Below, piece after piece: positions 21,469 to 62,124 of a stretch of 64,000 nucleotides of DNA. The notes beneath the pieces were generated by a model, which was given only the letters and a program-made list of their open reading frames with translations, made no database searches and was not told the DNA's origin. Location: positions 62,001-126,000 of the forward strand of contig JAOARW010000015.1 in assembly GCA_025210475.1 (NCBI GenBank), read 5' to 3'. The first letter of the stretch is position 1, and each line of letters opens with the position of its first letter. This DNA is from Carboxylicivirga sp. GTDB lineage: Bacteria; Bacteroidota; Bacteroidia; Bacteroidales; Marinilabiliaceae. Both the position numbers and the translations under genes were made by a program.

Positions 21469-24400
21469 ATGAAGCAATTACATTTTAGATTTTTATTTGT
21501 AGTTATTGTTTTATTTTCATTTAGTTATAATTTATTTGCCCAGGCCGGTCCAGGTGGGGTTGGAAATGTTGATGGAAGTGACGGTCAACCACGAACCGTG
21601 TTGTGGATTGATGCAAGTTCATTAGGATTAACAAATGGAGCAGCAGTTGAAACATGGACTGATAAATCTGGTAATGGATATGATGTTATCCAATCTACAT
21701 TGGCCAATCGGCCTCAATATGTACTTTCACATGCTTCTATAAATAATCAACCATTGGTTGAGTTTAATGGAACCAATCAGTTTATGTGGCTACCAACAGA
21801 ATTAACCACTAACGAGAATGGAATTGTGGGTGATGATTTTGCTTGTATCATGGTGGCTGGTCGATCAACTACTTCTACGGAATGGTTTATGGGAGGAAAT
21901 GCTGATGGTCCAAGTAGTGGTAATTTACATATTGGTTGGCGTGATGGTGATACATTCGCTTTTGGATTCTGGGGCAACGATGTAAATGGAGAACCAAGTC
22001 CTACACCTGCAGCTAATACGCTTCAGATTACACACATGGATTTGAACCGTACCGTTAATCCGGCACGTCATTTATTTATGAATGGTTCATTGGTTAATAC
22101 AAGGAATTCCAATAGTACTCTTAGCGGGTGGCAATCGCCAACCCTTGGGCGACGCAGTGGAAGTGTCTATGGGGATTTACTTATTGCTGAAATGATTTTT
22201 TACAAAGGTACATTAACCAATGTTCAACGCGTGATTATTGATAACTACCTGGCAGAAAAATATAATTTGAGCATTTCAAATGACATGTACTCCAATTCGG
22301 CTTTTCAAACCGATTTAAGAGGAGTTGGTCAGATCAATGGTGATCTGTTAAGTGTTAATTCAAGTCTTGGTTTTTATATTCGTGAAGATGGTAGTGTCGA
22401 GAATGGTGATTTCATCATGTTCGGCCATAATGGTAGTGCTAATACAGAATCAACTTCCGATTTACCCGCAGGTGTGGAAGAGCGCTGGTCGAAAGAGTGG
22501 TATGTTGATAAAACCGGTAATCTGGATGCGAAGATAATCTTCGATTTGCCGGAAGGCATTTCAGGCTTCTATCCTTCTGAAATTAGCAATTATACACTAC
22601 TTTACCGTGCTGGCACCACTGGTAACTATACAGAAGTAACAGCAACGGTTGCTTATGGCGATAATGATCAGGTTGAGTTCTCCGTTTTAAATGCTAACCT
22701 TTCTGATGGTTATTATACCTTGGGTACAAAAAGTGCTGCAGATAGCCCGGTTATTGGAAAAGAAGGTGTTGTATGGTATACATTGGCTTCCGGAGATTGG
22801 ACCGATTCGGATATCTGGACACTTGATCCGTCAGGTGCTCTGCCGAATAACCCAGGAGGGGCATATCCAAATTTATTATCAGATAAAGTAGTTGTTAAAA
22901 ATGGTAAGACTGTAACCGTTAACCAGAATAACTTAAACTGCAAAAGCCTTACAGTAGAGGGGCGATTGGATATTGGAACAACCACAGGTCATAGTTTCGA
23001 TGAAATTAAAGGAAACGGACGAATTATACTGGCGGGGGATAATTTCCCATCTGGTGATGCGTCGCATTTTATTTCAAAAGGTCTGGGTGAAGGTACAGTT
23101 GTATTCGAAGGAGCCGACTATGAAATAAACACAGCTCTTGAGTTTTATGATGTTGAAGTAGCTTTAAATGCATCGGCCAATAAAGTTACATTTCTAAAAG
23201 ATTTTGATGTTAATGGTAATCTGACAGTTAAAACAGGAGGTATCCAGATTAATAATAATAGTTCAACCACTATTTTAACATTTACCATTGATGGTGATAT
23301 TGTTGTACAAGCTAATGGTTCACTAACAGTAGGAAGCGGGAATACAAAAGGTTCTTATTCTATTCCGGGTTCTATGCCTGCAGTGGGACAGTACCACAAT
23401 ATTTTTCACCAGCTGATTGTTGGAGGTAGCTTTACAAACCATGGTACGGTGCGTTTAACCAATCAAAATGCACCTGTATACAATCAATTTACATCGACTG
23501 GTGCAGCAACCTTAAGATTCACTGGAAGCGCAGATGAAACATTCTATTGTTATAACACGACTGATTTATACAACTTGGTGATTGAGAAAGGAACTGACCG
23601 AACTTATGTGTTGGAGCTTTATTCCGACAATGATGCCTATTTCAGGTTATTCGGACCGAATAATTACGGTCGTTCGGGTTCTTCTCCATTTACAAATGCT
23701 AACCCAGAGGTACGCAAAGCTTTATGGATTTATAAAGGTACCTTAAAACTGACAGGTAGTGTGTACATTCCAACATTATCAGAAGGAGCTGCAGGAGGCG
23801 GTAATGGAGATTACGCCATCGGATTTGATGCCAAAATGTGGATAGCCGGATCAAGTGTCAAAGTACATACTTCTGCTACAAATGCTAATGATATACCTGG
23901 TTTTACTTCATCAGATACACATACCGCAGTGGGTGTGAGTTCAAGTGGTAGTCATAGTGCTTTATCTCTCTATGGTGAGTTCGAAATCGATAATGGATAC
24001 TTTGATACGGATAATAGTTATGGATTTGTTTTTTGGGATTCTGCCAATCCAACAGCCAAAATTAATGGCGGTACGCTTAATGTAACCAAACTATACCAGG
24101 TGGGGTCAGGTACTGCAACCTATATTCAAACCGGAGGATATCTTACTAAAAATGGGGGCGATCATTTTGATTTGAGTAATGCTGAGTCTGTATTTCAAAT
24201 GTCAGGAGGTACCATCGAAGTGCAAAATGGTAATTGTTTGATTGGTTCCAAAGAAGGAAATTATAATGTTACTGGTGGTACAATTAAGATTAAACAAAAT
24301 GGCGGGTCAACACCTATCTTAAATACTACAGTGCCACTATACAACCTCGAAGTAGAGAGCCTGAATGATATTGCAGGTTTAACACTAGACTTGCAAAGTG

Positions 24401-27400
24401 AATTAACAGTACTAAATGATCTTTCTTTGATAACACCAGATGTAACTGGAAATACAGTTGATGGTTTTCTTATTTTCCTCCATAACGGAAATGATGTAAG
24501 TATTGGTCGTAATTTTAGGATAGAGCGTGGAGCACGTTATGAGTGGGACTTTAATTCTGGTAATTCATGGCCAGGTGGTTGGACTCAGAATACGACAACT
24601 TTTAATGGAACAGAAGATGGAACGTTATATTTTACATGGCATGATGATCCGACTAAAGGTCAGGAGCAAAACTTCTGGAATTTAGTACTTAATAAGCCAT
24701 CTGGTAAAAAACTAACACTGTTGAGTAATACGGCAGTAAAAACAATGACAGGTGTTAATAATCGTCTAATTAAAACACATGGTGAGCTGAGAGTGGAATC
24801 CGGAACTTTTGACCAGGGAGAGCATTCTATTAGAGCCTATGGTAATATTGTTAATAAAGATGTTTTAACTGTATATGAGCATGGTGTAACTGGTAATGAG
24901 GCAAACATAAAATTACGTCCTGGTAATTACTCCATCGAAACAACTGATAATGCCGAATTCGGATTAGTTAAGTGTAACCCGGGAAATGGTTCTGTTTTAA
25001 GCTTTACTTCAGATGTTTATATCAAAAGACTAAATTATCACAACGGTCGATTAGATCTTAATGCAAACAACTTAAAGCTTGATTACCTATACAATAATGC
25101 CAGTGATGATACATTTGTTGCTGGTAATGGTAGTGTACAACAAATGTTTATAACCGATGGCAATTCATCAGATGGAGGTTTATCTCTGAAAGTTTATGAA
25201 AATCGAAGATATACTTTCCCAATAGGAGTAAGTGGAAAATATACACCTGTTGAGGTTACGGTCAGTGGATTTGTTGATGAAGGATACTTAACGATAAATC
25301 CAGTTGATGGAGAACTGAAAACCACAAATTTGAATGGTAATGATTTATTAAGCTATTACTGGCGAGTTAATCATGAAGGGTTTACTTCACTACCAAATGT
25401 AATATACAATCTGACATATGATGAAGATGATGTGATTAATGGAGGTGGTGGTAATAATGCTGATAATAATTACTACCCGGGTAGAGTTTTAGGTGAAAAT
25501 CCATATACCCGTTCATACATTAACGACAGAGGAAGAGTTGATGATTCAAATAACATCATCACCTACGATAATGGAAGTGGTTCAGGATTACAATTGGTGA
25601 GTGCTAATTATACAGCTGGTCGTAATAATCGTTTTAATGGTACAGTAGCTCAGTTTCATTCAAATGGTTCATACGTGAACTGGAATTCAAGGAGTACATG
25701 GGTTGAGAATCAGGTACCAACAGAAGGTAGCGTTGTACATATACGAAATGGTAACAGAATATGGGGAAATAGTATTCCAGATTCACCAGCCGAAGTAATT
25801 TTTGAGCATGACTATATTGCAAATCCAGTGGCAACACAAGAGAATGTAGCACGATTGCAGTTTAATACGGCAGGTACTTTTAATCTTGGTAAAGTGTCAG
25901 GTACAGGTATGATTTCTCTTAGGAATTCAGTTAATCCAACGGTTAATGGTGATTGGGGTGAATTTGCTGATAACCCGGATGCCATCGTTATGTATTGGAA
26001 TGGGAATACAACCTTAACGAATATAATGCAACCTGCTCCTTCATTAATGATTGAAGGTTCCAATGTAACGATTGATCAGGATATTGTATTGAATGCAGAT
26101 TTGATTTTGACGGGTAATACAAATCTGACATTGAATCAGAACGTACATGTTAAACGTAACTTATATGTAGGTGCTTGGACAGGTGGTAATTTGATTTTCC
26201 CGGGATCAAATCCAGCAATAACAGTCACAGTTGATGGAGATATTGATTTTACATATATTAATGAGAGTGGTGATCGTGATATTCAGGTTGCGGATTCAGG
26301 CACACCAGTAACTCATAAACTAATTGTGAAGGGTGATATAAACCAAGGAAGTAATAATAACTTCTCAATTGATTTGTATAATGGTATAGGAAGGCCAAAT
26401 GTTGATTTAGAAATACAGGGAGAGTCAAACAATAATTACTCTCGCACTTCTACCTCAGTGCTTGAATTGTACCGAATCATAATGAATAAAGGTACTGTGG
26501 CGGATAATACTTTTACATTCTCAAATAGTTTTAATTTGAATGGAGCAACAGCTGGGGTGGGGATTGATAAAGCAATAGAATTACAAAATGGTACGCTTGT
26601 ACTTGACGATTCAGCAATTGATATTAACCTAACAACCGGGGATGATAACTTCTCTATTACATCTACTACAGCTTTAGAAGTAAAACAAGGAACCGTTAAA
26701 GCTTCCGGTAATTCAGGAATTAATCTGGATGGTTTGTTAAAAGTATCAGGTGGAACTGTAGATATGTCTGGTGGAAATAACCCAATTATATACAGTGCCT
26801 CGGGTAATGCGCAAATCAATGTCTCTTCTGGTACTTTAACTGTTGGATCTCAAATAAGGCGATCAACATCAACCGATGATGGTTCATTAAAGTATTACCA
26901 ATCTGGTGGTAGCGTGGTAGTGGGTGAAACATCGGCACCAGTAGGTAGCAGAGGAGTCTTTGAAATCAGAGGTGCAGGAAGTCATTTCGAACATACAGGA
27001 GGTACGCTTCAGATTGCAAATGGACAAACATCAGCTACAATAGCTTCGGTTTATCTGACGCCTGAAACCTATAATATTGCAGACGGGACAAATCTTACAT
27101 TTGATCCGGTGCTAACCTCAGGTATAAATGAGATAGGTATTTATTCGCAAATACCACTAAAGAATGTGACACTGGCAAATGATGCCTTACTTAATGTTAA
27201 ACTTTGGACGGTACCTCTAAATATCGAACAAAATTTATTAATTGATGCTAATTCCACATTTAATGCAAATGGTCAGGATTTAAATATAGGTGGTAATTTT
27301 ACATTAAATTCGTCAGGTTCATTTACCCATGGAAACAATAAAACAACGTTCACCGGTAATATTGATCAGGACATTAATGGAACACCTACTTTCTATGATT

Positions 27401-30400
27401 TAGAAAAGAATGGCACTTCTGAGTTGGAAATAAATAATGAAATAAATGTTACCAATCAGCTTTTCTTTAACGCCGGTACTTTTGCCGATAATGGAAATAA
27501 CCTGAATGTTCAGGGGTATGCTCATTTTGCAGGTACGCATAATTATGGTGGCAGTGGTAAAGGCTTGGTATTAAATGGTTCTGCTAAGCAGGAGCTATCA
27601 GGTGGAGGAACACTGGGCATGCTGACCATTAATAACCCTTCGGGAATTGATGTGCCACTTGGTAATGAGTTCACAATTACACAAAAGCTTCGTCTCGAAT
27701 CAGGAGTTTTTAACATCGACAAAAACTTGTTAGTGTTAAATGAGAACTGTATTGTAGAACATGGTACGGAGGATTTCTCTGAAACCAATATGATTCAGAA
27801 TAATATTTCATTTACCGATAATGGAGTTCGAAAGATATTCCCACAGGTAACAAGTGGTGCATATAGCTTTGTATATCCTATGGGATCGGCAGGAAAGTAC
27901 ACTCCAGTATCGGTTAACTTAACCGCGAATGCTAACAATACGGGTTCACTAACTGTTAAGCCGGCTAATGAATATCACCCAAGTGTGACTGATCCGAATA
28001 ATGTACTTAATTACCACTGGGAATTGAAAGCGATTAGATTAACAGGGTTTAGTGGTGAAATTCGTATGAAGTTTGATCCGGATGATGCTAAAGTGACAGG
28101 TGGTAATTCCATTGATGATTATATTACTGCACGACTTTTAGCAGATGGTACGGGTGACTGGAATAAATTTTCGGGAGCTGGTGTGATCGATAATACAACT
28201 AAAGAGTTAGTTTTTGATTTTGCAGTTACCGATGATAGTGGTATTAGTGGTGCTTACACAGCGGGTATTGATGCCGCTATACCTGATCAGGTACCAGGCT
28301 ATATTACAATTTCGAATGGCGATTGGACAAACAATGCCATTTGGGATACTTATCCAAGCGCAGGTGGAACAGTTCCGGCTGGTGGTCCAAGGGGGTCAAT
28401 TGTATACATTGCCCATGAGGTGGATGTGCCAAATAATTTCTTGTCGGTATACAAGACTAACATTAACCCAACAGGAACTTTAAGCCTTGGATCTACTTTT
28501 GGTCATCGTTTAGGTGAAGTTAAAGGAGAAGGTTTACTAAAAATGGAAGATCGCGGTAGTTTACCGGCAGGTGTATATGACAATTTCTTCTCTCTTAGTG
28601 GAGGAACACTTGAATTTGCGGGTACTACCAATTATGATTTCTTAAGTGATATAAATCAACTAAACAATTTGGTATTGAGTGGTACCGGTGATCGACGTTT
28701 CCCTAACCTGGATTTAACTATTCTGGGAGATCTTACAATTGATGGAGCTAATGCCATTAATGAGCACGATCGCATTCTTTATACAAAGGGCGATATTGAT
28801 TTTAAGGCAGGTACTTACGATGCGGGTACAGGTGCTTCAAATGTTGTATTAAATGGAACAGCATTACAATACATTAAAGGAGCAACTGAGTTCAATGGAA
28901 CCAACGATTTCTATAATCTAACCATCAATAATGCCGCAGGTGTGGAAATTGAGACCGGGGTAGAAATCAGTAATGTTCTGGCATTAACCAATGGTATTGT
29001 ATTTAATATCAATGATAAGTCATTTACCGTTGATAATGCAAGTAATTCATCTGTAACAGGTGGAGGTGCAAGTTCATATGTTCAGGGACCTTTGACTAAA
29101 CTGGTAAATAATGGTGATAGCTTTAGCTTCCCAATTGGAGATGCTGATCGCTTGGGAGATGTCATAATTAGTAATACCAACACTTCCGGTGCTGATTATT
29201 GGATTGCCGAATATTTTAATAACAATCCTGCCAATGAAGGTAAAAATCCAAGCAGCATGGCGGGCGATGTGAAATTTGTAAGTCATAACGAGTACTGGCG
29301 AATTAAAGGAGCTGTTTCAGCTGAGGCAGAAGTAACACTTAGGTGGGATAATTTGAGTGGCGTAACGCCTGATGATGATTTCAGAGTTGTTGAATGGAGA
29401 TCGACTTCCAATTGGAACGAAGTAGCCATTGCAACGCCATCGGGTAACAACAGCGCAGGGACTGTTAAAACAGCTTCTCGAATAAGTTATAATGAGTTCG
29501 CTGCAGATGGTAATTTCTTTACATTTGGTTCTGTTTTAATTCCTGCCTTTACGTGGCAAGGAACTGGCCCGGATGGTAACTGGTTTAATACAGCCAACTG
29601 GGTAGATGGAGTTGTGCCATCGGCCGGTACAGACATTACACTGAATACAGCCGGGCATGCACCGTTTATTCCCGATCAGGCAATTGTTGCTCAGGTTAAT
29701 AATTTAACCATTAATCACAACTTGGGATTAACCATGCAACCAGGTTCTCAGTTAACCGTAAATGGTGTATTAAATACGAATGATCGATTATTTGTAGAAA
29801 ACACAAATGCCAAGCCAGCTTCATTAATAACTAATGGAACAGTTAATGGAACAGTTTCTGTTAAGTGGACTTACGATAATTTACGATGGTGGTTTATCGG
29901 TCATGCCATAAGTAATGCAGCTATGAGCAGTTACGAGGCCCTTCGTCCGGCCAATGATTATGCCATGTATGATTATCAGAATGGTGGAAGTTATTACAAA
30001 GTATCAGATAATGCAGGAACTTATAATCTGGCTAGCCAAAATAAGCTGCAAGGCTACTTATTTAAAGTAAAAGATACCGGTGCCGAAGTAACACAGGTTG
30101 GTACTTTAAACGATGACAATGAATATAGTCGTGTGTTACTGGATGAATGGCAGATTATCGCTAATCCTTATGCTTCGTATTATAAGTTACCTAAAGATAA
30201 CAGGGCTGGCTCTGATTTTGAACACACAACAGGTACGGTCTATGTTACTGTATCAACACGAAATAGTGACAAGACTTTTGAAACGTTCAATACAATCTCT
30301 GGTCTGGCTTCTCCTGAAACATTTACTAATGGTATCATTGCCCCTTCACAAGCCTTCTATTTAAAAACGGAACCAGGGCATGAAGGTGAATCGGTATTTA

Positions 30401-31140
30401 TGCGTAAAGGAAATCGTATTCACGATGTGAATAAAGTTAGCCTGAAGTCAACTAAGAATAAAGAAAACGATGTATTACGTGTGAAATTAAATAACGGAAC
30501 ATTGGTTGACGAAGCTGTTATTGCACTTCGCGAAGATGGACAAATGGCTTTTACACGTATGGATTCTGAACAACGCTTTATGAGTGGAAACGACTATTCT
30601 TACATCTATTCAATGATTGATGATAATAAAGCAGTAATCAATGTTGTTCCTGCTGATATGAAAGATAGAGCGGTTAAGCTTGGGGTTAAAACAAAGGCCG
30701 GTGAGCATACCATTCATATCGAAGGTTTCAATACTTTAAGTGAAGATTATAAAATTGAACTGGAAGATATGATCAAAGGTTCAATCGTACAATTGGATGC
30801 CAATTCAAGCTATACTTATACAGCCGAAGAGGAAGAGTCGAATGATCGTTTCATTCTGCACTTTAGTAAAACGGATGTTTCAACCGGTATTGGTGATGGA
30901 ACTGAAGAGACAGAAGAGCAGGCTAGGGTTTATGTTCAGAATAAGTCAACTTTAGTTGTCAATTGCGATTGGATGGGAGTTAAGCAAGTGATGCTTTATA
31001 CTTTGGATGGTCGCCTAGTTGATACAATTGAATTTAAAGCTGATACCTTCACCAAAGATTTAAATCTTAAATCAGGTATCTATGTAGTGAAGCTAGTGGG
31101 TGAAAGTAAACAGTTTGAACAAAAAGTATATGTGAACTAA
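21469..31140 (+). CDS. Giant (3,223-residue) T9SS-secreted protein with N-terminal LamG-like domain
   Basis: The signal peptide (residues 1-25, ends LFAQ) is followed by a jelly-roll/LamG-like concanavalin fold at about residues 40-270. Its motifs are VLWIDASS, TWTDKSGNGYD, QPLVEFNGTNQ and YLAEKYNL, typical of surface carbohydrate- or ligand-binding modules. Then come beta-helix rungs with W-x-W module starts near residues 435, 1,400 and 2,285. The block near residues 2,090-2,450 resembles the first giant gene. The last 428 residues are the shared module with a type A T9SS sorting domain (STGIG, GIYVVKLVG, basic end). Export by Sec then T9SS to the cell surface is predicted. The N-terminal domain, absent from the visible parts of the other two, suggests different ligand specificity. 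Ordinary codon use and an intact frame indicate a functional gene. Confidence 0.92.
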   Translation: MKQLHFRFLFVVIVLFSFSYNLFAQAGPGGVGNVDGSDGQPRTVLWIDASSLGLTNGAAVETWTDKSGNGYDVIQSTLANRPQYVLSHASINNQPLVEFNGTNQFMWLPTELTTNENGIVGDDFACIMVAGRSTTSTEWFMGGNADGPSSGNLHIGWRDGDTFAFGFWGNDVNGEPSPTPAANTLQITHMDLNRTVNPARHLFMNGSLVNTRNSNSTLSGWQSPTLGRRSGSVYGDLLIAEMIFYKGTLTNVQRVIIDNYLAEKYNLSISNDMYSNSAFQTDLRGVGQINGDLLSVNSSLGFYIREDGSVENGDFIMFGHNGSANTESTSDLPAGVEERWSKEWYVDKTGNLDAKIIFDLPEGISGFYPSEISNYTLLYRAGTTGNYTEVTATVAYGDNDQVEFSVLNANLSDGYYTLGTKSAADSPVIGKEGVVWYTLASGDWTDSDIWTLDPSGALPNNPGGAYPNLLSDKVVVKNGKTVTVNQNNLNCKSLTVEGRLDIGTTTGHSFDEIKGNGRIILAGDNFPSGDASHFISKGLGEGTVVFEGADYEINTALEFYDVEVALNASANKVTFLKDFDVNGNLTVKTGGIQINNNSSTTILTFTIDGDIVVQANGSLTVGSGNTKGSYSIPGSMPAVGQYHNIFHQLIVGGSFTNHGTVRLTNQNAPVYNQFTSTGAATLRFTGSADETFYCYNTTDLYNLVIEKGTDRTYVLELYSDNDAYFRLFGPNNYGRSGSSPFTNANPEVRKALWIYKGTLKLTGSVYIPTLSEGAAGGGNGDYAIGFDAKMWIAGSSVKVHTSATNANDIPGFTSSDTHTAVGVSSSGSHSALSLYGEFEIDNGYFDTDNSYGFVFWDSANPTAKINGGTLNVTKLYQVGSGTATYIQTGGYLTKNGGDHFDLSNAESVFQMSGGTIEVQNGNCLIGSKEGNYNVTGGTIKIKQNGGSTPILNTTVPLYNLEVESLNDIAGLTLDLQSELTVLNDLSLITPDVTGNTVDGFLIFLHNGNDVSIGRNFRIERGARYEWDFNSGNSWPGGWTQNTTTFNGTEDGTLYFTWHDDPTKGQEQNFWNLVLNKPSGKKLTLLSNTAVKTMTGVNNRLIKTHGELRVESGTFDQGEHSIRAYGNIVNKDVLTVYEHGVTGNEANIKLRPGNYSIETTDNAEFGLVKCNPGNGSVLSFTSDVYIKRLNYHNGRLDLNANNLKLDYLYNNASDDTFVAGNGSVQQMFITDGNSSDGGLSLKVYENRRYTFPIGVSGKYTPVEVTVSGFVDEGYLTINPVDGELKTTNLNGNDLLSYYWRVNHEGFTSLPNVIYNLTYDEDDVINGGGGNNADNNYYPGRVLGENPYTRSYINDRGRVDDSNNIITYDNGSGSGLQLVSANYTAGRNNRFNGTVAQFHSNGSYVNWNSRSTWVENQVPTEGSVVHIRNGNRIWGNSIPDSPAEVIFEHDYIANPVATQENVARLQFNTAGTFNLGKVSGTGMISLRNSVNPTVNGDWGEFADNPDAIVMYWNGNTTLTNIMQPAPSLMIEGSNVTIDQDIVLNADLILTGNTNLTLNQNVHVKRNLYVGAWTGGNLIFPGSNPAITVTVDGDIDFTYINESGDRDIQVADSGTPVTHKLIVKGDINQGSNNNFSIDLYNGIGRPNVDLEIQGESNNNYSRTSTSVLELYRIIMNKGTVADNTFTFSNSFNLNGATAGVGIDKAIELQNGTLVLDDSAIDINLTTGDDNFSITSTTALEVKQGTVKASGNSGINLDGLLKVSGGTVDMSGGNNPIIYSASGNAQINVSSGTLTVGSQIRRSTSTDDGSLKYYQSGGSVVVGETSAPVGSRGVFEIRGAGSHFEHTGGTLQIANGQTSATIASVYLTPETYNIADGTNLTFDPVLTSGINEIGIYSQIPLKNVTLANDALLNVKLWTVPLNIEQNLLIDANSTFNANGQDLNIGGNFTLNSSGSFTHGNNKTTFTGNIDQDINGTPTFYDLEKNGTSELEINNEINVTNQLFFNAGTFADNGNNLNVQGYAHFAGTHNYGGSGKGLVLNGSAKQELSGGGTLGMLTINNPSGIDVPLGNEFTITQKLRLESGVFNIDKNLLVLNENCIVEHGTEDFSETNMIQNNISFTDNGVRKIFPQVTSGAYSFVYPMGSAGKYTPVSVNLTANANNTGSLTVKPANEYHPSVTDPNNVLNYHWELKAIRLTGFSGEIRMKFDPDDAKVTGGNSIDDYITARLLADGTGDWNKFSGAGVIDNTTKELVFDFAVTDDSGISGAYTAGIDAAIPDQVPGYITISNGDWTNNAIWDTYPSAGGTVPAGGPRGSIVYIAHEVDVPNNFLSVYKTNINPTGTLSLGSTFGHRLGEVKGEGLLKMEDRGSLPAGVYDNFFSLSGGTLEFAGTTNYDFLSDINQLNNLVLSGTGDRRFPNLDLTILGDLTIDGANAINEHDRILYTKGDIDFKAGTYDAGTGASNVVLNGTALQYIKGATEFNGTNDFYNLTINNAAGVEIETGVEISNVLALTNGIVFNINDKSFTVDNASNSSVTGGGASSYVQGPLTKLVNNGDSFSFPIGDADRLGDVIISNTNTSGADYWIAEYFNNNPANEGKNPSSMAGDVKFVSHNEYWRIKGAVSAEAEVTLRWDNLSGVTPDDDFRVVEWRSTSNWNEVAIATPSGNNSAGTVKTASRISYNEFAADGNFFTFGSVLIPAFTWQGTGPDGNWFNTANWVDGVVPSAGTDITLNTAGHAPFIPDQAIVAQVNNLTINHNLGLTMQPGSQLTVNGVLNTNDRLFVENTNAKPASLITNGTVNGTVSVKWTYDNLRWWFIGHAISNAAMSSYEALRPANDYAMYDYQNGGSYYKVSDNAGTYNLASQNKLQGYLFKVKDTGAEVTQVGTLNDDNEYSRVLLDEWQIIANPYASYYKLPKDNRAGSDFEHTTGTVYVTVSTRNSDKTFETFNTISGLASPETFTNGIIAPSQAFYLKTEPGHEGESVFMRKGNRIHDVNKVSLKSTKNKENDVLRVKLNNGTLVDEAVIALREDGQMAFTRMDSEQRFMSGNDYSYIYSMIDDNKAVINVVPADMKDRAVKLGVKTKAGEHTIHIEGFNTLSEDYKIELEDMIKGSIVQLDANSSYTYTAEEEESNDRFILHFSKTDVSTGIGDGTEETEEQARVYVQNKSTLVVNCDWMGVKQVMLYTLDGRLVDTIEFKADTFTKDLNLKSGIYVVKLVGESKQFEQKVYVN
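29854..31140 (+). repeat. Shared C-terminal module, copy 3 of 3
   Basis: 428 residues plus stop, collinear with copies 1 and 2: WTYDNLRWWFIGHA, NDYAMYDY, LQGYLFKVK, STRNSDKTFETFNT, IIAPSQAFYLKT, TRMDSEQRF, then the T9SS sorting domain. Confidence 0.85.
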
Positions 31141-52100: not shown

Positions 52101-53756
52101 ATGAATGCGATCCTTGCTTTTGTACCGATATTACTCACCATTGTTTTGATGGCAGGTTTTAACTGGGGAGCTAAAAAAGCTTTGCCACTTTCCTGGATAT
52201 TGGCAGTGCTGATTGCACTGTTCTATTGGAAAATCGACCTGTTAAATGTGACTGCTTACTCTTTCTTTGGGGTGTTAAAGGCGCTTGATATTCTGATTAT
52301 CATTTTTGGCGCCATTTTAATTCTTAATACGCTAAAAATTTCAGGAGCCATGGCTGCCATAAATAATGGTTTTCAGGGAATCACTCGTGATAGAAGGGTG
52401 CAAGCCATTATCATTGGTTATATGTTTGGTGCTTTTATCGAAGGAGCAGCCGGATTTGGAACACCTGCTGCCCTGGCAGGTCCTTTATTGGTAGGCTTGG
52501 GATTTCCGCCTTTGGCAGCCGCCATTGTAGCTTTGATATTCAATAGTGTTCCGGTGGCATTTGGAGCAGTTGGAACGCCGGTTTTCGGTGCCATGAGCAC
52601 CTTATCCACCAATTTATCGGATGTTGGTGCCGATCCAACATTGTTTCAAACGGTATTAACCAAATGGATTGCTTTACCAAATGCTTTAGCAGGTACTCTA
52701 TTGCCACTGATTGGCATTATGATTATGACCCGCATATTTGGTAAGAAAAAATCAATAATGCCTGCATTGGAGGTAGCTCCTTTTGCCATTTTTGCCGGTT
52801 TATCTTTTATGATACCCTATACATTAATAGCAGTGGCTTTTGGACCTGAGTTGCCAAGTTTGGTAGGTGCCTTTGTGGGATTGGGCATTGTGGTTTTTGC
52901 TGCTAAAAAAGGATTCTTAGTGCCCAAGAATACCTGGGATTTTCCAGAAAAATCGATGTGGAGTAAACACTGGATGTCAAACACTGATACCGGGCAAATT
53001 GTAGAATCAAAAATGCCTTTGTTTAAGGCTTGGGCGCCCTATTTTCTGATCGCAATTATCTTAGTGATTACACGTATTCCTGCTTTTGGTTTAAAAGGAA
53101 TATTGGCCGCTCAGCAAATTACTATTAATAACCTGTTTGGTATCGAGTCGTTAGATTATTCATTAAAGTGGGCTTACCTGCCTGGTACCATTCCATTTAT
53201 TCTGGTAGCCATTTTGAGTGCATTTTATTATAAAATGAAGGCTAAACAAGTGAAACGTGCCTGGAAGCTTACTTTTAATCAGATCAAAGGAGCTGCAATT
53301 GCCCTGTTTAGTGGTGTGGCTCTGGTACAAATAATGCTTAATTCTGGAGCCAATGGTGCTGGTTTCGAAAGTATGCTAACAGAAATGGCGCGTGCTACTG
53401 CAGATCTTTCAGGAAGAGCCTATCCGGTATTTGCTCCCATCATAGGTATTTTGGGCGCTTTTATGTCGGGTTCGGCAACCGTATCCAATATACTTTTCGC
53501 CTCTTTTCAGTTCGAGACAGCCACTCTGTTGGGTTTACCGCAAATATTAATTGTTGCCATGCAAGGCATTGGTGCAGGTGTTGGCAATATGATATGTGTT
53601 AACAATGTTGTGGCTGTTTCGGCGACGGTAGGCTGTATCGGTTCGGGGGGCTTTATCATTCGAACGAATGCTAAGCCGGTTCTTATCTATTATTTGATCA
53701 TATTGATTGCTTTGGGCGCATTCATTTTTTCAGGATTTAATCCATTGTCATTATAA
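52101..53756 (+). CDS. lctP: L-lactate/glycolate permease (LctP family)
   Basis: 551 residues with about 12-14 transmembrane segments across the whole length. Family hallmarks include [32 protein letters not shown] near residue 114, [14 protein letters not shown], and the C-terminal [19 protein letters not shown] and [24 protein letters not shown]. It imports lactate (often also glycolate) with protons through the inner membrane. The dehydrogenase starts only 12 bp after its stop, which indicates one operon. A candidate sigma-54 promoter stands upstream. Which lactate isomer is carried is not visible, but the partner enzyme suggests D-lactate is used. Confidence 0.96.
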
Positions 53757-53768
53757 AATTTTTGAATC

Positions 53769-56700
53769 ATGTTAACGGGGGAATATAAATCATTATACCA
53801 ATCACTGTCGGGGGTGATTGATACAAAGCGAATGTATCACGATACCTTGCATACATTAGCTTTTGGTACAGATGCCAGCTTTTACCGCTTAATTCCGAAG
53901 TTGGTTATAAAGGCTAAAAATGTGGATGAGGTGATTGCGATAATACAGGAAACCTCCCGGAGAAATATAGCTGTTACCTATCGGGCAGGAGGAACCAGTT
54001 TGTCAGGACAGGCCATCTCAGATTCGGTATTGGTGATTGCCGGTGAGCATTGGAAAGGGTACGAGATATTGGATGGAGGTGAGCGTATTCGTTTGCAGCC
54101 CGGTATTGTTGGATCAAGAGCCAACACGGTTTTGGCATCTTATGGTCGAAAGATAGGACCCGATCCGGCTTCCATCAATGCTGCCATGATTGGAGGAATA
54201 GCTGCCAATAATGCCAGTGGTATGTGTTGCGGTACGTCTGAAAACTCGTATAAAACAGTAGACAGCATGAAGATTGTTTTTCGGGATGGCTGTTTATTGG
54301 ATACGGGCGATGAAGCAAGCCGAAAGCAATTTTTGCAAAGCCATGCTCAGCTTATCGATGATGTAAATAACCTGGTTGAGGCCGTAAATGCGAATGAACC
54401 GCTTACGCAACGGATTAAGGATAAGTTCAAAATGAAAAATACAACAGGCTACAGTTTAAATGCCTTTGTTGATTTTAAAGATCCGTTTGAGGTAATTGAA
54501 CACATCATGATTGGTTCAGAAGGAACGCTTGGTTTTATTGCCGAGATAACCTACAAAACCGTTGTGGAGCATGCTCATAAAGCCAGTTCGCTGATGATTT
54601 TTCCTGATATCGAAAAAGCATGTAATGCTGTGTCGATGCTGAAAAATACACCGGTAGCTGCAGTAGAGCTAATTGATCGGGCTGGTCTTCGCTCGGTGGA
54701 AGATCAGGATGGCGTACCAGCATATCTAAAAACGTTGTCGAAAGATGCCAGTGCTATTTTGGTAGAAACCCGGGCATCGGATAACGATTCCCTGACTGCT
54801 CAGATAGATATCATTCTGGATACGATTAAAGAAATTCCATCCGAATTACCGCTGACCTTTACTTCTATTCCGGCACAGTTTAATGCTTTATGGAAAATAC
54901 GAAAGGGATTATTTCCTTCGGTTGGCGCCATTCGTAAAACCGGAACCACTGTTATTATTGAAGATGTTACTTTTCCGGTACCGCAATTGGCCTCGGCCAC
55001 ATTGGATTTGCAAGCTTTATTCCGGAAATACGAATACAGCGAGGCCGTAATTTTTGGACATGCACTGGAAGGTAATCTGCATTTTGTTTTTACCCAGGAT
55101 ATGGGAGATCCAATGGAAGTGAAACGATACGATGCTTTTATGCAGGATTTGGTGAATTTGGTGGTTGATAAATACGATGGAGCATTAAAAGCTGAACACG
55201 GAACCGGTCGTAACATGGCTCCTTTTGTTGAAAAGGAATGGGGAAGTGAAGCTTATGAACTGATGAAGAAGATCAAAGCCATCTTCGATCCCGGGTATTT
55301 ACTTAATCCGGGAGTGATCTTAAATAATGATCCAGAATCGCATTTGAATAATCTAAAGCCTTTACCACCCGCCTTTGAAAAGGTGGATAAATGTATTGAA
55401 TGTGGTTTTTGTGAGCCTACATGTGTAGCCAATGAATTAACGCTATCTCCACGTCAGAGAATTGCAACATATCGCGAAATCAGTCGATTAAAAGCCAGTG
55501 GAGAAAAGCCTCATGAAGCGGCTGCTTTGGTAAATGCTTTTCAATATGCAGGTGATGAAACATGTGCAACCGATGGTTTATGCGCCTTAAGCTGTCCGGT
55601 AAATATCGATACGGGTAAGCTAATTAAAGAGTTAAGGTTTAATAAGCATACGCCAAAACAAAATAAGATTGCCACCTGGTTGGCACAACATATGGACTTG
55701 GTAACGCGGATTTTACGAAAAGTACTGTGTATGCTCAATGTGGTTCATACCATATTAGGTAGCCGAACCATGTCGGCCATATCCAAATGCATGTATAAGT
55801 TTTCGGGTAAAAAAATACCCTTGTGGAATAAGTACATGCCCAAAGCTTCTAAGAAAATTTATATACCTGAAATTAATCCGGATAATCCGCGTAAAGTGGT
55901 GTATTTTCCATCCTGTATTAATCGTTCCATGGGGCCTTCAAAGGATCAGAGTAAAGAACAGTTGACATCTGTATTTGAAAGGTTGATCCTAAAAGCTGGG
56001 TATGAGATTATTTATCCTTTTAAGATGAATAGCTTATGCTGCGGAATGTCGTACTCGAGTAAAGGATTTAAAGAACAAGGCCTGATGAAATCTCAGGAAT
56101 TGGAAGAGGCCTTGCAACAGGCAAGTATAAATGGGAAATACCCTGTTGTTTGTGATATGAGTCCGTGTTTGTATACCATGAAGGAAAACATGCAGGATCG
56201 CCTTAAATTATATGAACCTGTAGAATTTATTCTCAAGTATTTAAAAGATTACCTGGAATTTGAGCCTATTGACAAAACGGTATCGGTGTTTGCCGTGTGC
56301 AGTATGAAAAAGATGGGAATGGACGCAAAACTGGTTGAATTAGCCGAAATGTGTGCGACCAAAGTGGTTAAACCCGATACCAATTGTTGTGGCTTTGCCG
56401 GAGATCGTGGATTTTCATATCCGGAGCTTAATAAACACGGATTGCGAAATTTGAAAATTCAGTTGCCACATGAAGTACAAAAAGGTTATTCAACTTCAAG
56501 AACCTGCGAAATAGGATTATCCAAGAATAGTGGAGTCAGTCACGAATCGATTGTTTACTTGGTGGATAAGGTGACGAAGCCCTTACAATCCTATGCCAGC
56601 AAAGTACTAATTACAATTGCTGCGCTAGTAATATCATGTTTGGGTATGAATCCTTTAAAGGCACAGGATAAGCCAACAGTGAAGCTGAGTGGATTTGTAT

Positions 56701-57830
56701 CCAGTGAAGCTATTTTTGATAGCCGTAAGGTGGTTTCGGCTCGGGATGGAGATGTGATTTTATATCCTGCACCTAAAAGCATCGACGATAATGGTGTTGA
56801 TATAAATGAAAAGGGCGATTTTTCATTTCTAAGTATTCATAGTCGTTTGCGAGCCAAAGCCGGAGGTGTGAATTTATGGGGAGGAAAGTTGAGTGGGCTA
56901 ATTGAATTTGATTTTGTCGGATCAACCAATGCCTATATTGGTTTGGTAAGAATGCGACATGCCATGGTGCAGCTCGACTATAGCAAAACAAGTATTTTGT
57001 TTGGTCAATATTGGCATCCCATGTTTGTTACCGGTTGTTTTCCTGCTATTTCATCGTGGGGAGCATCAGCACCAATCTCTGTGCTAGCCCGAAATCCGCA
57101 AATTAGGATTAGCCATCAGTTATCAGATAAATTCAGAGCATCTGTTGCAGCTGTATCACAATTCGATTTTAAATCTTCGGGGCCCGATGGAGTTAGCAAT
57201 GTTTATCTCCGACAGTCATCAATGCCCGAATTGGATGTGCACTTTGAATATGGAAGCAAAGGGAAAAGCCTTATTGGATTTGTTGCCGGTACTAAGAAAA
57301 TTGTTCCACGACAACTCAATTCATTAGGCAATTATGTGGATGAAAGTATTCGAAGTTATCATGCTCTGGCTTATACAACTTTGAAATTTAAACCTGTTCA
57401 TGTTAAGTTGCAGGCCATCTATGCCGAAAATGGTTCTGATATGTTATTACTGGGTGGTTATGGAGTGAGTCATATCGACTCGCCAACTGAAAAATACACC
57501 TATACACCATTAAGTACGTTAAATTATTGGGGCGAAATTGTTACCCAGGGTTCCAAAGTAAAGTTTGGTTTGTTTGCCGGTTGGGCAAAGCAACTTGGTA
57601 GTAAAGATACAATAGCCGATGGTAATGCAGTCTTTGCCCGCGGTAGTAATCTGGATTATGTGGCACGTATTGCACCGCGCATAATACTTGGTAACAAAGC
57701 GGTGAAGGTGATGTTTGAGCTAAATCAAACCTTTGCGGCGTATGGAGTAGCCGATGAAAAATATAAAATTTCGAATGCAGAGACAGTCGGTAATACAAGG
57801 CTGCAATTGCATGTGATGTATAGTTTCTAG
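53769..57830 (+). CDS. D-lactate dehydrogenase (FAD/Fe-S) fused to an outer membrane porin-like barrel
   Basis: 1,353 residues in one frame. Residues 1 to about 935 form a complete Dld-II-type enzyme. The FAD-binding PP loop is TYRAGGTSLSGQ near 70, with FAD-oxidase C domain to about 520, a first Fe-S motif C542/C545/C548/C552, and a second at C599/C605/C609. Two CCG domains follow (C757-C758 and C873-C874). Such enzymes oxidise D-lactate to pyruvate and pass electrons to the quinone pool at the inner membrane. The family normally ends near VYLVDKVTK. Here the frame continues into a signal-peptide-like segment (about 935-965) and a 388-residue beta-rich part ending MYSF, like an outer membrane barrel. 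The two parts belong in different compartments. Either a stop was lost, internal start or cleavage separates them, or there is a sequence error. Confidence 0.88.
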   Translation: MLTGEYKSLYQSLSGVIDTKRMYHDTLHTLAFGTDASFYRLIPKLVIKAKNVDEVIAIIQETSRRNIAVTYRAGGTSLSGQAISDSVLVIAGEHWKGYEILDGGERIRLQPGIVGSRANTVLASYGRKIGPDPASINAAMIGGIAANNASGMCCGTSENSYKTVDSMKIVFRDGCLLDTGDEASRKQFLQSHAQLIDDVNNLVEAVNANEPLTQRIKDKFKMKNTTGYSLNAFVDFKDPFEVIEHIMIGSEGTLGFIAEITYKTVVEHAHKASSLMIFPDIEKACNAVSMLKNTPVAAVELIDRAGLRSVEDQDGVPAYLKTLSKDASAILVETRASDNDSLTAQIDIILDTIKEIPSELPLTFTSIPAQFNALWKIRKGLFPSVGAIRKTGTTVIIEDVTFPVPQLASATLDLQALFRKYEYSEAVIFGHALEGNLHFVFTQDMGDPMEVKRYDAFMQDLVNLVVDKYDGALKAEHGTGRNMAPFVEKEWGSEAYELMKKIKAIFDPGYLLNPGVILNNDPESHLNNLKPLPPAFEKVDKCIECGFCEPTCVANELTLSPRQRIATYREISRLKASGEKPHEAAALVNAFQYAGDETCATDGLCALSCPVNIDTGKLIKELRFNKHTPKQNKIATWLAQHMDLVTRILRKVLCMLNVVHTILGSRTMSAISKCMYKFSGKKIPLWNKYMPKASKKIYIPEINPDNPRKVVYFPSCINRSMGPSKDQSKEQLTSVFERLILKAGYEIIYPFKMNSLCCGMSYSSKGFKEQGLMKSQELEEALQQASINGKYPVVCDMSPCLYTMKENMQDRLKLYEPVEFILKYLKDYLEFEPIDKTVSVFAVCSMKKMGMDAKLVELAEMCATKVVKPDTNCCGFAGDRGFSYPELNKHGLRNLKIQLPHEVQKGYSTSRTCEIGLSKNSGVSHESIVYLVDKVTKPLQSYASKVLITIAALVISCLGMNPLKAQDKPTVKLSGFVSSEAIFDSRKVVSARDGDVILYPAPKSIDDNGVDINEKGDFSFLSIHSRLRAKAGGVNLWGGKLSGLIEFDFVGSTNAYIGLVRMRHAMVQLDYSKTSILFGQYWHPMFVTGCFPAISSWGASAPISVLARNPQIRISHQLSDKFRASVAAVSQFDFKSSGPDGVSNVYLRQSSMPELDVHFEYGSKGKSLIGFVAGTKKIVPRQLNSLGNYVDESIRSYHALAYTTLKFKPVHVKLQAIYAENGSDMLLLGGYGVSHIDSPTEKYTYTPLSTLNYWGEIVTQGSKVKFGLFAGWAKQLGSKDTIADGNAVFARGSNLDYVARIAPRIILGNKAVKVMFELNQTFAAYGVADEKYKISNAETVGNTRLQLHVMYSF
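56571..56666 (+). other. Internal signal peptide and possible internal start inside the fusion
   Basis: From the in-frame GTG at 56,571 (residue 935) the protein reads VTKPLQSYASK, a hydrophobic core VLITIAALVISCLGM, then NPLKA-QD. This is a complete n/h/c signal peptide with an A-Q cleavage site near residue 965. In-frame GTG codons at 56,562 and 56,571, preceded by GGTGG, could start the porin independently. Otherwise signal peptidase cleavage would leave the dehydrogenase with a C-terminal membrane tail. Confidence 0.65.
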
Positions 57831-58252: not shown

Positions 58253-60661
58253 ATGGTATTATTCAAAAAACGATTCATATTAGTCTGTTTGCAATTATTA
58301 TTGATTGCACCTTCAATATTTGCTCAACCCAATACCATCAAGAAGATATTGGTTTTACATTCTTATCATCAGGGGCTGGAATGGACCGATAATGTCACCT
58401 ATGGAATCAAGCAGGCATTTGAGGATTATGATGAGGAAATAGAATTGTATTTTGAGTATCTGGATTCAAAGCGCTATCCCGATACCCTTCATTTTAGCTT
58501 GATTCAGAATTACCTGAGACACCGCGAAGTTCAAACACGATTCGACCTGATTATTTCGGTCGATGATGATGCTTTAAGGTTTTTGATTCAAAACAGGCAG
58601 GAATTATATAGGGATATACCGGTTGTGTTTTGTGGGGTGAATAATGGCATTCATTCTGCCAGGCATGATTCATTGATTACCGGAATTAAAGAACGGCCGG
58701 ATTTTTTAGCGACGCTCAATCTAATGCATCAATTACATCCGAAAGTTGATGATGTTTATGTGGTTAACGATGTTAGAACAACAACAGCACAGTTAAATCG
58801 TAGTATATTAGATTCTCTTCAGAGTAAGCAGCCGTTTAACTTACATTATATCGACGATGTTAGTTTGGAGCAATTAGCTGATCATATTCAAAAGCTTCCA
58901 TCAAATTCTCTTATTTTCCTGTTGACTTTCAATAAGGATAACAAAAAACAGTTCATTTCTTTTAAGGAAGAAGTACGCTTGGTTGCTAAAAATGCTAAGG
59001 TACCTATCTATTCCAACTGGAGTTTCTTTCTAAATCGTGGTATTGTTGGTGGCTATCTCTTAAGTGGTGAGAGACATGGTAATCGTGCAGCTCAAATTGC
59101 CATAAGAGTGCTACAAGGTGAGCATCCACAAGATATAGGAATCAAATCAAGCAGCGAAGGTGAGTTTCAGTTTGATTATAATCAACTTAAAAAATACAAT
59201 ATTGATCGGAAACAACTGCCCGAGTCAAGTGTGATCATTAATAAGCCAATTGATTCTTATGTGTTTGATAAAACGCAAATAGCCATTATCATTGGAGTGT
59301 TTTTAATTAGTTCCTTGGTAATTATTGTTTTATCCCGATCCATTAAAAAGCGGATCAAAGCAGAAAAAGAACTGTTAGTAAAGCAGGAGTACCTGGCGAT
59401 TGCTTTTGAGCAGCAGCGCCTGATGGCTGAGATTGTGACCTATCTGAATTCCACCAATGATTTCACCTTGGTAATTGATAAGGTGTTGAATGCCATTGCT
59501 AAAACCACCAATATCGGTAAGGTAAGTGTTTACAGTTTTACCAATGATGAGATGATTGGTCATATTATTGGTTCGCACACATCTGATCAAAACAGCAGCA
59601 TAATTGAACTGGAGCGTAAGAATGTTTTTAAGATTAAGAAGATTATTGATCGAATATTGAATAATGAAACAATTATTAGTGCCGATTTATCGGAGTTTAC
59701 CAAAGACGAACAAGAGTTTTACGTATCCAGGGGGGTTAAGTCAGTATTGTTAATTCCGATAAAAGTAACAGATAAGATTATTGGTGTAGCAGGATTTGCT
59801 TATCCGGATCATCATAAATGGGATGATGATGAACTAAGGTTACTAAATACTTTGGTGCGAATGATTGCAAATGCCTGGGAGCGGAATTTTCAGATGAATC
59901 AATTTCTGGATATGGAAAAGCAGCATGCAGAAGCCATCCGCGTCATGGAACAAACTTCTCGTTTAGCATCGATTGGCGTTATTACAGGCGGCATTACCCA
60001 TGAAATTAATCAGCCGCTTAATGCCATTCGAATTACAACGGATACCATGTTGCGAAAAGCCAAGAAGACAAACGGTGATTTGGCTGCCTATATGGTTCGT
60101 AAGCTAAATGCTATTGCCGAAGGAACAAGCCGAATTGATGGTATCGTTAAGAATATGCGGAATTATTGGGTTAATCCGGTGCCCGATGCCGAAGAAAAAG
60201 AAGAAATTGACTTGAATGATGTATTGGCAGATGCATTGAAATTATTAAAACGTCAGATCAGAAATCATGGCATCCACTTAAAAGTGAAACAAGCCATCGG
60301 TAACCTGAACCTGAAAGGCAACAAAATTCAATTGGAGCAGATTGTTATTAATTTGGTGGTTAATGCTATACAGTCGCTTAATGAAGTGGAGCGGGAAGAG
60401 AAGCGCATATTAATCAGAACACATAAACGTAAGACTGGCATTCAATTAACGGTGGAAGATAATGGAAAAGGCATTGAGGATGCTGTGGGTGATCAGTTGT
60501 TCGATCCGTTTTACAGTACTAAAAAAAAGCGGGGTGGTTCAGGACTTGGCTTGGCCATTGTTCGCACCTTTGTTTTAAAGATGAATGGTTCTATTCGATT
60601 TGAGAATATTGAAGGAGAAGGGGTGCGCTTTATTATTGTTTTTAAAAATCCTGAATCATGA
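58253..60661 (+). CDS. Periplasmic-sensing hybrid-domain histidine kinase (ABC_sub_bind-GAF-HisKA-HATPase)
   Basis: 802 residues. A signal peptide (1-24, ends IFAQ) is followed by a periplasmic domain like ABC-transporter substrate-binding proteins of the PF04392 type (KKILVLHSYHQGLEWTDNV, about 30-320). Then come one transmembrane helix (343-362), a GAF-like domain (about 400-540), a HisKA domain with phospho-accepting H583 (ITGGITHEINQPLNAIR), and an HATPase domain with N box (VINLVVNAIQ), G1 (DNGKGIED), F (FDPFYSTKK) and G2 (GSGLGLAI). It should sense a small molecule in the periplasm and phosphorylate the regulator encoded by the next gene, whose start overlaps its stop by 4 bp. Position after the lactate genes suggests lactate or another organic acid as signal, but this is inference. 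Confidence 0.92.
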   Translation: MVLFKKRFILVCLQLLLIAPSIFAQPNTIKKILVLHSYHQGLEWTDNVTYGIKQAFEDYDEEIELYFEYLDSKRYPDTLHFSLIQNYLRHREVQTRFDLIISVDDDALRFLIQNRQELYRDIPVVFCGVNNGIHSARHDSLITGIKERPDFLATLNLMHQLHPKVDDVYVVNDVRTTTAQLNRSILDSLQSKQPFNLHYIDDVSLEQLADHIQKLPSNSLIFLLTFNKDNKKQFISFKEEVRLVAKNAKVPIYSNWSFFLNRGIVGGYLLSGERHGNRAAQIAIRVLQGEHPQDIGIKSSSEGEFQFDYNQLKKYNIDRKQLPESSVIINKPIDSYVFDKTQIAIIIGVFLISSLVIIVLSRSIKKRIKAEKELLVKQEYLAIAFEQQRLMAEIVTYLNSTNDFTLVIDKVLNAIAKTTNIGKVSVYSFTNDEMIGHIIGSHTSDQNSSIIELERKNVFKIKKIIDRILNNETIISADLSEFTKDEQEFYVSRGVKSVLLIPIKVTDKIIGVAGFAYPDHHKWDDDELRLLNTLVRMIANAWERNFQMNQFLDMEKQHAEAIRVMEQTSRLASIGVITGGITHEINQPLNAIRITTDTMLRKAKKTNGDLAAYMVRKLNAIAEGTSRIDGIVKNMRNYWVNPVPDAEEKEEIDLNDVLADALKLLKRQIRNHGIHLKVKQAIGNLNLKGNKIQLEQIVINLVVNAIQSLNEVEREEKRILIRTHKRKTGIQLTVEDNGKGIEDAVGDQLFDPFYSTKKKRGGSGLGLAIVRTFVLKMNGSIRFENIEGEGVRFIIVFKNPES

Positions 60662-62124
60662 AAATACTCGTTGTTGAAGATGATTTACTAAGTCGGGAAG
60701 CCATTGTCGAATTTTTATCCGATGAGATGGAGCATGAAATCGTATCGGCCGAAGATGCCAATCGTGCTCTGGAACTTTTGAGTGAGAACCGTTTCCAGTT
60801 AATAGTGTCTGATATAAAAATGCCGGGTATTAGCGGGATAGAACTGCTTAAACGGGTGAAGGAAAATTACAAGGCAACGGAAGTAATATTGATGACAGGA
60901 TTTTCAGAAATCAATAACTCAATAGAAGCTTTGCGTTGGGGGGCTGCCGATTATTTGCTAAAGCCGGTTAACATCGAAGAATTAGCACATGCCATTGATC
61001 GTATTCAGGATAAGCTTGAGCTGATTTCGGAGAATACTGAACTAAAAGCCTCGGTTGAAGAGATGGGGTCTCAGGTCGATCTGTCTGAAAAGAAGCTACA
61101 GGCCTTACAAAGTACCATGAGAACCATTCAGCAAAGTGGAGAACTGGCTGTTTTCTCGAACCATATGCGGCAGGTTGTTGATTTATCAATGAAATTTCAT
61201 AATAGCCGGGATGTCCCGGTTCTCATCCAGGGAGAAACAGGTACGGGCAAGGAAATGATTGCCCGACTGATTCATTATGGTGATAACGAGAATTTGCAAG
61301 AGCCTTTTATCCCTGTAAATTGTGCGGCCTTATCGCCACAATTATTCGAGAGTGAATTGTTTGGTTATGAACAAGGTGCTTTTACCGGAGCCAATGTTAA
61401 AGGAAGAATTGGTAAGATGGAACTGGCGCAGGGTGGAACCTTGTTTTTAGATGAAATAGGCGAATTACAGCCAGAGATGCAGGCAAAACTGTTGCGTGTG
61501 TTACAACAAAAAGAATTCTACCGCGTTGGGGGTGATAAACTGATTAAGCTGGATGTGCGTTTCGTTTTCGCAACCAATAGGAACTTAAAGCAAATGATCC
61601 AGGATCAGGCCTTTCGCTCCGATTTATACTACCGAATGGAAAGTGGCCTGATTCACTTAAAACCATTAAGAGAGAAAACGGAAGAAATTGTGCCTTTGGC
61701 GCAGTATTTTATGGAGCAATTTACCCGGAATCGGCAGAAAGCATTTCGCTTTATAAGCAAGCCGGCTCAGTCGATTTTGGAAAAGCATCCCTGGCCGGGA
61801 AATGTTCGTGAGTTGGAGAATGCCATTGAAAGGATTGTTTTATTATTCGACGAAACAGAAATCCAGCCAAAGCATTTAACTCATTTGTATAACGATGATG
61901 ATCAATTGCACCCTGAAAAAACGGCCAATGCAAACTACTTTGTACCCGGGGAATTGGTTCTTCCGCCAGAGGCCTTTTCACTGGAGCAGTTAGAGTTGGA
62001 GATCATTGATAAAACCATGACACGCTTTAATGGTTCGAAAACTAAAACGGCTGATTATTTAGGAATCACTCGCTTTGCTCTTCGCAGTCGACTGAGGAAA
62101 CTGGAGGAGCGAAACAGTTCTTAA
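60658..62124 (+). CDS. NtrC-family sigma-54 response regulator
   Basis: 488 residues. A receiver domain (1-120) has acidic pocket E7/D8/D9, phospho-acceptor D52 (VSDIKMP) and K in LLKPV. The AAA+ domain (about 165-390) has Walker A GETGTGKE at 192-199, the sigma-54 contact loop GAFTGA at 240-245, Walker B GGTLFLDEIGEL and sensor ATNRNLKQ. The C-terminal Fis-type helix-turn-helix (GSKTKTADYLGITRFALRSRLRKLEE) binds enhancer DNA. On phosphorylation it hydrolyses ATP to open sigma-54 promoter complexes. It overlaps the kinase gene by ATGA, so the two form a two-component pair. The candidate -24/-12 promoter and paired palindrome upstream of lctP are the obvious targets within this window. Confidence 0.96.
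   Translation: MKILVVEDDLLSREAIVEFLSDEMEHEIVSAEDANRALELLSENRFQLIVSDIKMPGISGIELLKRVKENYKATEVILMTGFSEINNSIEALRWGAADYLLKPVNIEELAHAIDRIQDKLELISENTELKASVEEMGSQVDLSEKKLQALQSTMRTIQQSGELAVFSNHMRQVVDLSMKFHNSRDVPVLIQGETGTGKEMIARLIHYGDNENLQEPFIPVNCAALSPQLFESELFGYEQGAFTGANVKGRIGKMELAQGGTLFLDEIGELQPEMQAKLLRVLQQKEFYRVGGDKLIKLDVRFVFATNRNLKQMIQDQAFRSDLYYRMESGLIHLKPLREKTEEIVPLAQYFMEQFTRNRQKAFRFISKPAQSILEKHPWPGNVRELENAIERIVLLFDETEIQPKHLTHLYNDDDQLHPEKTANANYFVPGELVLPPEAFSLEQLELEIIDKTMTRFNGSKTKTADYLGITRFALRSRLRKLEERNSS

Follow-up and report, generated by a model that had tools for sequence, protein, structure and literature searches.

In Bradyrhizobium, the fbcH gene encodes a cytochrome b/c1 polyprotein, one gene for two proteins that are split by signal peptidase at an internal signal. 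In the cytochrome-porins Cyc2 and Cyc572, a small heme-binding part is presumably exported along with the barrel, and we know of no porin part on D-lactate dehydrogenases of the Dld-II type. In Helicobacter pylori, lctP is described as serving the same pathway as the Dld-II enzyme HP1222 (PMC4117512), and Acinetobacter DcaP porins are reported to be needed for growth on di- and tricarboxylic acids (PMC12338516). Here we describe a gene of Carboxylicivirga sp. in which a Dld-II-like dehydrogenase and a DcaP-like porin share one open reading frame (ORF), joined through an internal signal-like segment. It lies in a stretch of 64,000 nucleotides (GenBank assembly GCA_025210475.1, contig JAOARW010000015.1, positions 62,001 to 126,000; hereafter the window) and encodes 1353 amino acids (aa) at 53769..57830 on the + strand, the strand also of the gene parts and neighbouring genes described below. 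The in-frame join of enzyme and porin is real and conserved, and is neither an error nor an accident of one strain. From comparison of related sequences, the conserved gene probably gives a polyprotein that is cut by signal peptidase I as its main route.

One frame and its conservation

A preliminary description made from the window alone had reported one uninterrupted 1,353-codon frame running from dehydrogenase through signal to porin; this held in the ORF call, in the window's own genome and in an alignment with eight other fusions, and the figures given there for the dehydrogenase end (about residue 935) and for the barrel were correct. Residues 1-936 (53769..56576) matched FAD_binding_4, FAD-oxidase_C and C-terminal 4Fe-4S dicluster and CCG domains on one chain, the domain set of Dld-II-type enzymes; nine NCBIfam models also matched, all below their cut-offs and none of them a Dld-II model. 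The cysteines of the Fe-S and CCG domains were invariant in the nine-row alignment of fusions. This part is followed by a linker or positively charged n-region (residues 937-945, 56577..56603), the hydrophobic core of the putative internal signal (residues 946-960, 56604..56648; 15-residue mean hydropathy 2.63) and a c-region with a predicted signal peptidase I site, NPLKA/Q, cut between residues 965 and 966 (56649..56666). The remainder (residues 966-1353, 56664..57827) is a beta-barrel porin with a C-terminal Phe. Its barrel was predicted with high confidence, with a first strand from residue 970, about 5 residues past the predicted cut, and its fold was that of DcaP, 6eus_A being the best match both by Foldseek and by VIA-align (phmmer E-value (E) 0.012; 19% identity over the aligned part). 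Since the cut-off of Pfam PF19577 (DcaP) was not reached and no match resulted, we filed the barrel as DcaP-like and not as DcaP; a related sodium:solute symporter (SSF) fusion, P0013, passes that model (27.9 against a cut-off of 27).

A protein search with the barrel, confined to proteins of 744-2367 aa, gave 10 matches among 6,680 candidates, nine of them dehydrogenase-porin fusions (window included) and the tenth a chemoreceptor-porin fusion, P0010. The fusions include the window's own protein (P0001) and those of Carboxylicivirga sp. RSCT41 (P0002), locus L005 (P0004) and locus L034 (P0005). A scan of contigs found the fusion at L034, in Prolixibacteraceae bacterium JC049 (82%), and at L035, in a Bacteroidales metagenome-assembled genome whose contig begins inside the gene; L035 is the same sequence as L005, which came from the whole-genome search. 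The ORF is 1,367 aa long in the fusions of G501 and G505. None of the five fusions read from DNA (window, L034, L005, L138 and L139) contained a stop codon, and the frame recurred in independent assemblies, as DNA in JC049 and in contigs of 593 kb and 2.6 Mb, and as a protein record in RSCT41. Synonymous sites in the barrel and in the main part of the dehydrogenase were saturated among the window, L034 and L005 (pS 0.74-0.82 per synonymous site), so the frame is old, and together with low nonsynonymous differences over the same parts (pN 0.07-0.13) this indicates purifying selection on the frame and on both halves. The 29 codons of linker and signal had a pN of 0.23-0.43 in the same three sequences, changing fast as signal peptides do. 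Six proteins (window and P0002-P0006) make up clade A and have a junction of identical length; the fusions of clade B are 1365-1370 aa long, with a linker about 11-13 residues longer.

The distribution of the fusion is patchy. Within the window's family (71 genomes), a stop-free junction was found only in the window's own genome and in G013, and among 393 sampled genomes of its order (E 1e-40), a sample that did not include G013, only in the window's own genome. The family of JC049 (140 genomes) held three fused genomes (G458, which is JC049, G501 and G505) and one with an adjacent, unfused pair (G459, locus L037). In genome DNA, fusions were accepted only from directly translated ORFs; the long frames listed for G955 and G896 each turned out to hold two ORFs, separate though in one frame.

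The internal signal and its predicted processing

The dehydrogenase part ends at a motif (YLVD.V) that also ends the dehydrogenases of unfused relatives, and in the unfused L037 a stop follows 8 residues beyond YLVDQVT. Beyond this motif came a charged stretch, a hydrophobic core and then A/Q in 10 of 11 fused dehydrogenase rows, with G/Q in P0009; at motif level, the Q-rule pattern of Bacteroidetes (charged n-region, hydrophobic core, small residue then Gln) was thus present in all 11. In this phylum, Gln stands right behind the cut in a mean of 71% of predicted signal peptidase I substrates across species, as given in PMC5837995. Because the cut site in the junction table was located by the pattern [AG]Q[DE], Gln at that position is no independent test there; the nine-row alignment is independent, and in it Q966 and K968 were the sole invariant residues from T936 to G975. 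Junction hydropathy exceeded that of every preceding stretch in all 11 rows (15-residue means 1.91-2.73 versus 1.24-1.87, L005 being compared without its first 137 residues), and the 12 residues preceding the core carried a charge of +2 to +6 in each of them. Separate porins of relatives (L037, L042 and others) have an ordinary N-terminal signal at the corresponding place; for 29 separate porins the first ATG was taken as the start, which is clearly too far upstream for some (L031, L045).

We postulate that the ribosome makes the dehydrogenase first and that Sec would then take the internal segment for an N-in/C-out signal, with signal peptidase I predicted to cut after Ala965. The released porin would go on to the outer membrane, and the dehydrogenase would stay cytoplasmic with a C-terminal hydrophobic tail of about 20 residues as its inner-membrane anchor, a position from which it could pass electrons to the quinone pool. 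Any ribosome translating the dehydrogenase runs into no stop ahead of the porin. As the first strand begins about 5 residues past the cut, an uncut chain could hardly keep its helix in the inner membrane and its barrel in the outer one, and by the geometry of the predicted model an outer-membrane barrel would need either the cut or a start of its own. Of the three possibilities raised in the preliminary description, the comparison favours a precursor that is cleaved at its internal signal, the cleavage itself being predicted.

Several points count against cleavage by signal peptidase. The signal was assigned from hydropathy, charge and motif, cleavage and export both being predictions, and the tail would have to be exported efficiently behind a large N-terminal Fe-S/FAD (flavin adenine dinucleotide) enzyme. 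At -3 the window has Leu, L034 and L005 alone have Ala and the residue varies elsewhere, leaving the classical AxA incompletely conserved; both symporter fusions (P0013 and P0014) lack Gln at the script-placed site. The unfused L037 shows that the fusion is not required, and extra internal starts, discussed below, are possible from the codons present.

Unfused relatives, other partners and alternative explanations

In L037, the dehydrogenase ends with ...VDQVTEPRKNERK; its TGA stop and the porin's ATG start overlap as ATGA, and the porin carries a signal peptide of its own, MKSKAYILIVVSALFMMLPSLVKAQ. A dehydrogenase tree of 34 rows and a porin tree of 47 rows placed L037 beside clade B (support 92/86 and 100/96, respectively), inside the fused group, and the fused rows plus L037 grouped at 100/100 in the dehydrogenase tree. 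With L037 in that position, the join would have arisen either twice, or once with one later split, and the trees do not choose between the two. An approximately unbiased test rejected a grouping of the fused rows by themselves, as a single origin that leaves out L037 would require (p-AU 0.007, to be read with the long branches of P0010, L038, L042 and L096 and with the naming of groups after the tree was seen). According to the preliminary description, the fusion would count as an artefact or a strain-specific accident if some relative had its dehydrogenase closed by a stop and its porin begun separately; L037 is such a relative, but it is nested inside the fused group. Dehydrogenase and porin are also adjacent but separate in L096, 38 bases apart, and in G888 a permease-like ORF (by eye), dehydrogenase and porin stand in series, the last two 36 bases apart. 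The join may have come from a small indel in the stop-start overlap of two operon neighbours. G459 carries, besides the pair at L037, a second, unfused dehydrogenase copy (68%; L140 4369-7203) with no porin match in the surrounding 12 kb.

The same porin family is joined to other partners through internal signal-like stretches: to chemoreceptors (MCP) in P0010-P0012, to SSF symporters in P0013 and P0014 and to an MFS permease in P0016, with a junction assessed by eye. For symporter and MFS partners the fusions are known as protein records; P0010 alone was checked in DNA, and was confirmed as one ORF in G904 (L180 4221-7013) under a source name that mentions the chemoreceptor alone. Source names of the fusions, where present, mention only the N-terminal part. 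Four unrelated partners imply at least four joins, and in the porin tree the fusions with other partners stood apart from those with the dehydrogenase, the symporter pair being weakly supported (61/29). In phylum-wide samples, with at most two candidates scored per genome, a chemoreceptor-porin fusion was found in 1 of 395 at E 1e-100 and a symporter-porin fusion in 0 of 395 at E 1e-80. Among the 77 genomes of G904's family (E 1e-60), the chemoreceptor-porin fusion occurred in G904 only, none was found among 61 relatives of G505 searched with P0010, and none of 1666 plasmid records covered 80% of P0010, the five matches listed being to the chemoreceptor part only.

Two of these kinds of partner were also met as separate genes upstream of the porin: a chemoreceptor at L003 of the window's own genome (104 bases away) and in G896 (63 bases away; identified by its match to the P0010 search), and a symporter in L052 (4-base overlap), L055 and L047. 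Other upstream neighbours were a TPR-like protein, a nucleoside transporter and a GAF/PAS sensor with a 4-base overlap; the scan for identity covered 10 upstream proteins, and many porin loci showed no near upstream ORF. At L003 (5-2721), the DcaP-like porin follows a Cache-type chemoreceptor and is the unfused counterpart of the chemoreceptor-porin fusions; its genus mates L082-L087, L090 and L093 are like it by their C-terminal sequences, L003 alone having been scanned. Separate DcaP-like porins also lie 2-47 bases downstream of proteins of 252-265 aa in L104, L107, L108, L111, L112, L117, L119 and L122, and overlap by 4 bases in L120; these upstream proteins share a similar C-terminus (RNFIQKMFP-like), and of the two scanned, L104 had a weak TPR match and L120 no Pfam match.

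It is quite possible that the fusion is tolerated drift, cut and working with no benefit over two genes, a reading that concerns why the fusion exists and not how it is processed and is compatible with a polyprotein. The fusion can be absent (L037; two changes on the trees), the porin family is fused to differing neighbours and the distribution is patchy, all of which fit drift; persistence of the fusion in two clades with saturated synonymous sites speaks against it. We leave any benefit of the fusion over two genes undecided.

An internal start (GTG 56562 or 56571, both proposed in the preliminary description) is unlikely to be the main source of the porin, with the read-through chain as a by-product. 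The candidate GTG at V932 (56562..56564) is kept in all three clade-A DNAs, which is a further point against cleavage as the main route, and initiation there would give MDKVTKP...LKA, a usable signal peptide; P0009 likewise has an internal Met followed by charged residues (MKSRSALK) that could serve as a start. GTG stood in all three clade-A rows at 3 of 63 invariant valines, which puts chance at one named site at about 5%, and because a codon was shared at 270 of 933 invariant residues in the same rows, retention of this GTG is weak evidence. Moreover, the V932 codon is not in all fusions a GTG, being GTC in clade-B L138 and L139, and is GTA in the unfused L037. No start codon upstream of the hydrophobic core was common to the five DNA-read fusions, and internal initiation is therefore disfavoured as a general route; an ATG present in L138 and L139 lies at the edge of the core and is not followed by a charged residue. 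By eye, no Shine-Dalgarno-like stretch preceded GTG 56562, although many Bacteroidota use none, and since the dehydrogenase lacks a stop, each of its chains would still continue into the porin. No slippery heptamer common to the fusions was seen by eye, and no program was run for such heptamers.

It is very improbable that the chain is made but left uncut with one half non-functional: no direct evidence favours this, purifying selection acts on both halves, and invariant Fe-S/CCG cysteines (9 rows) and a high-confidence barrel model argue against it. An error of sequencing or assembly, or a stop lost recently in this one strain, the remaining possibility of the preliminary description, can be dismissed, for although L037 proves that an unfused arrangement exists, the same frame is conserved across the independent assemblies listed above with saturated synonymous sites.

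Gene neighbourhood and comparison with known systems

A lactate permease gene (LctP; 52101..53756; TIGR00795 above cut-off) lies 12 bases upstream of the fusion. Downstream are a sensor histidine kinase (58253..60661; ABC_sub_bind, GAF, HATPase), with counterparts in L034, L037, L138 and L139 by N-terminal sequence and position, and a sigma-54-type response regulator (60658..62124), with counterparts in L034 and L037 and none within the stretches covered for L138 and L139. All four of these loci keep permease, dehydrogenase(-porin) and kinase in this order, and in Balneicella halophila LctP, a separate porin (55% identical), a LutB-like protein (TIGR00273, 407 bits and so below the cut-off of 445) and the dehydrogenase all lie together. 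Given the LctP gene upstream, the kept gene order and the Balneicella cluster, lactate or a similar hydroxy acid is the likely substrate.

In B. halophila DSM 28579 (L042 6001-8821), the dehydrogenase homologue is spread over three frames that overlap slightly (query residues 1-128, 121-770 and 761-938), which would reflect either a pseudogene or sequence errors. No TANNTTTG promoter-like site was found on the + strand of 53600-56700, where only about two would be expected at the 0.6 per kb of the window. A sigma-54 promoter pattern was left unused, having given 42 matches (with two or fewer mismatches) where 100 shuffled sequences averaged 32 and 5 of them reached 42. An internal-signal scan of the window also picked out giant ORFs of 5,280 and 3,223 aa (4802-20644 and 21469-31140) with hydrophobic N-terminal stretches, perhaps surface proteins.

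If the predicted processing is right, a single gene would serve both ends of an uptake-and-use route across the envelope, in a frame that runs stop-free from interior enzyme to outer-membrane pore. More tentatively, the fusions might form a recurring class of bacterial polyproteins. In these, signal peptidase would remove a C-terminal DcaP-like porin from an inner protein whose task is to sense, import or oxidise substrates of the class that the pore serves; pore and partner would be made in a fixed 1:1 ratio, and the partner would keep a ready-made membrane anchor. The gene bears on whether a Sec signal can work behind a long, folded enzyme of the cytoplasm, on signal peptidase as a bacterial polyprotein protease beyond cytochrome b/c1, and on a possible role of operon order with ATGA overlaps as a source of such joins. 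A further consequence is that porins can be hidden within proteins named as dehydrogenases, chemoreceptors or symporters.

Like fbcH, the window's fusion is one gene for two proteins with an internal signal, its cleavage being predicted. Both fbcH products stay in the inner membrane as one complex, whereas a cytoplasm-side enzyme and an outer-membrane pore would part compartments. This kind of polyprotein has its precedent in cytochrome b/c1; the partners and the separate-compartment outcome look new within the limits of our searches, which found no internal-signal or dehydrogenase-porin fusion in titles and abstract openings of the open-licence PMC literature. The Cyc2 and Cyc572 cytochrome-porins, as presented in PMC10654088, resemble the fusion in having a redox domain and a porin barrel in one chain. 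In contrast to Cyc2, the window's protein has a flavo-iron-sulfur enzyme of about 936 residues ahead of its internal signal, and its halves would not share one place. Its enzyme part is like Dld-II D-lactate dehydrogenases such as H. pylori HP1222, described as a FAD enzyme with a C-terminal 4Fe-4S-binding domain (PMC4117512), and its barrel, 19% identical to 6eus and under the Pfam DcaP cut-off, is a distant likeness of the Acinetobacter porins treated in PMC12338516. The MCP-, SSF- and MFS-porin fusions share with it the porin family and an internal signal-like stretch at the C-terminus of the inner protein, and differ in an N-terminal partner that is unrelated.

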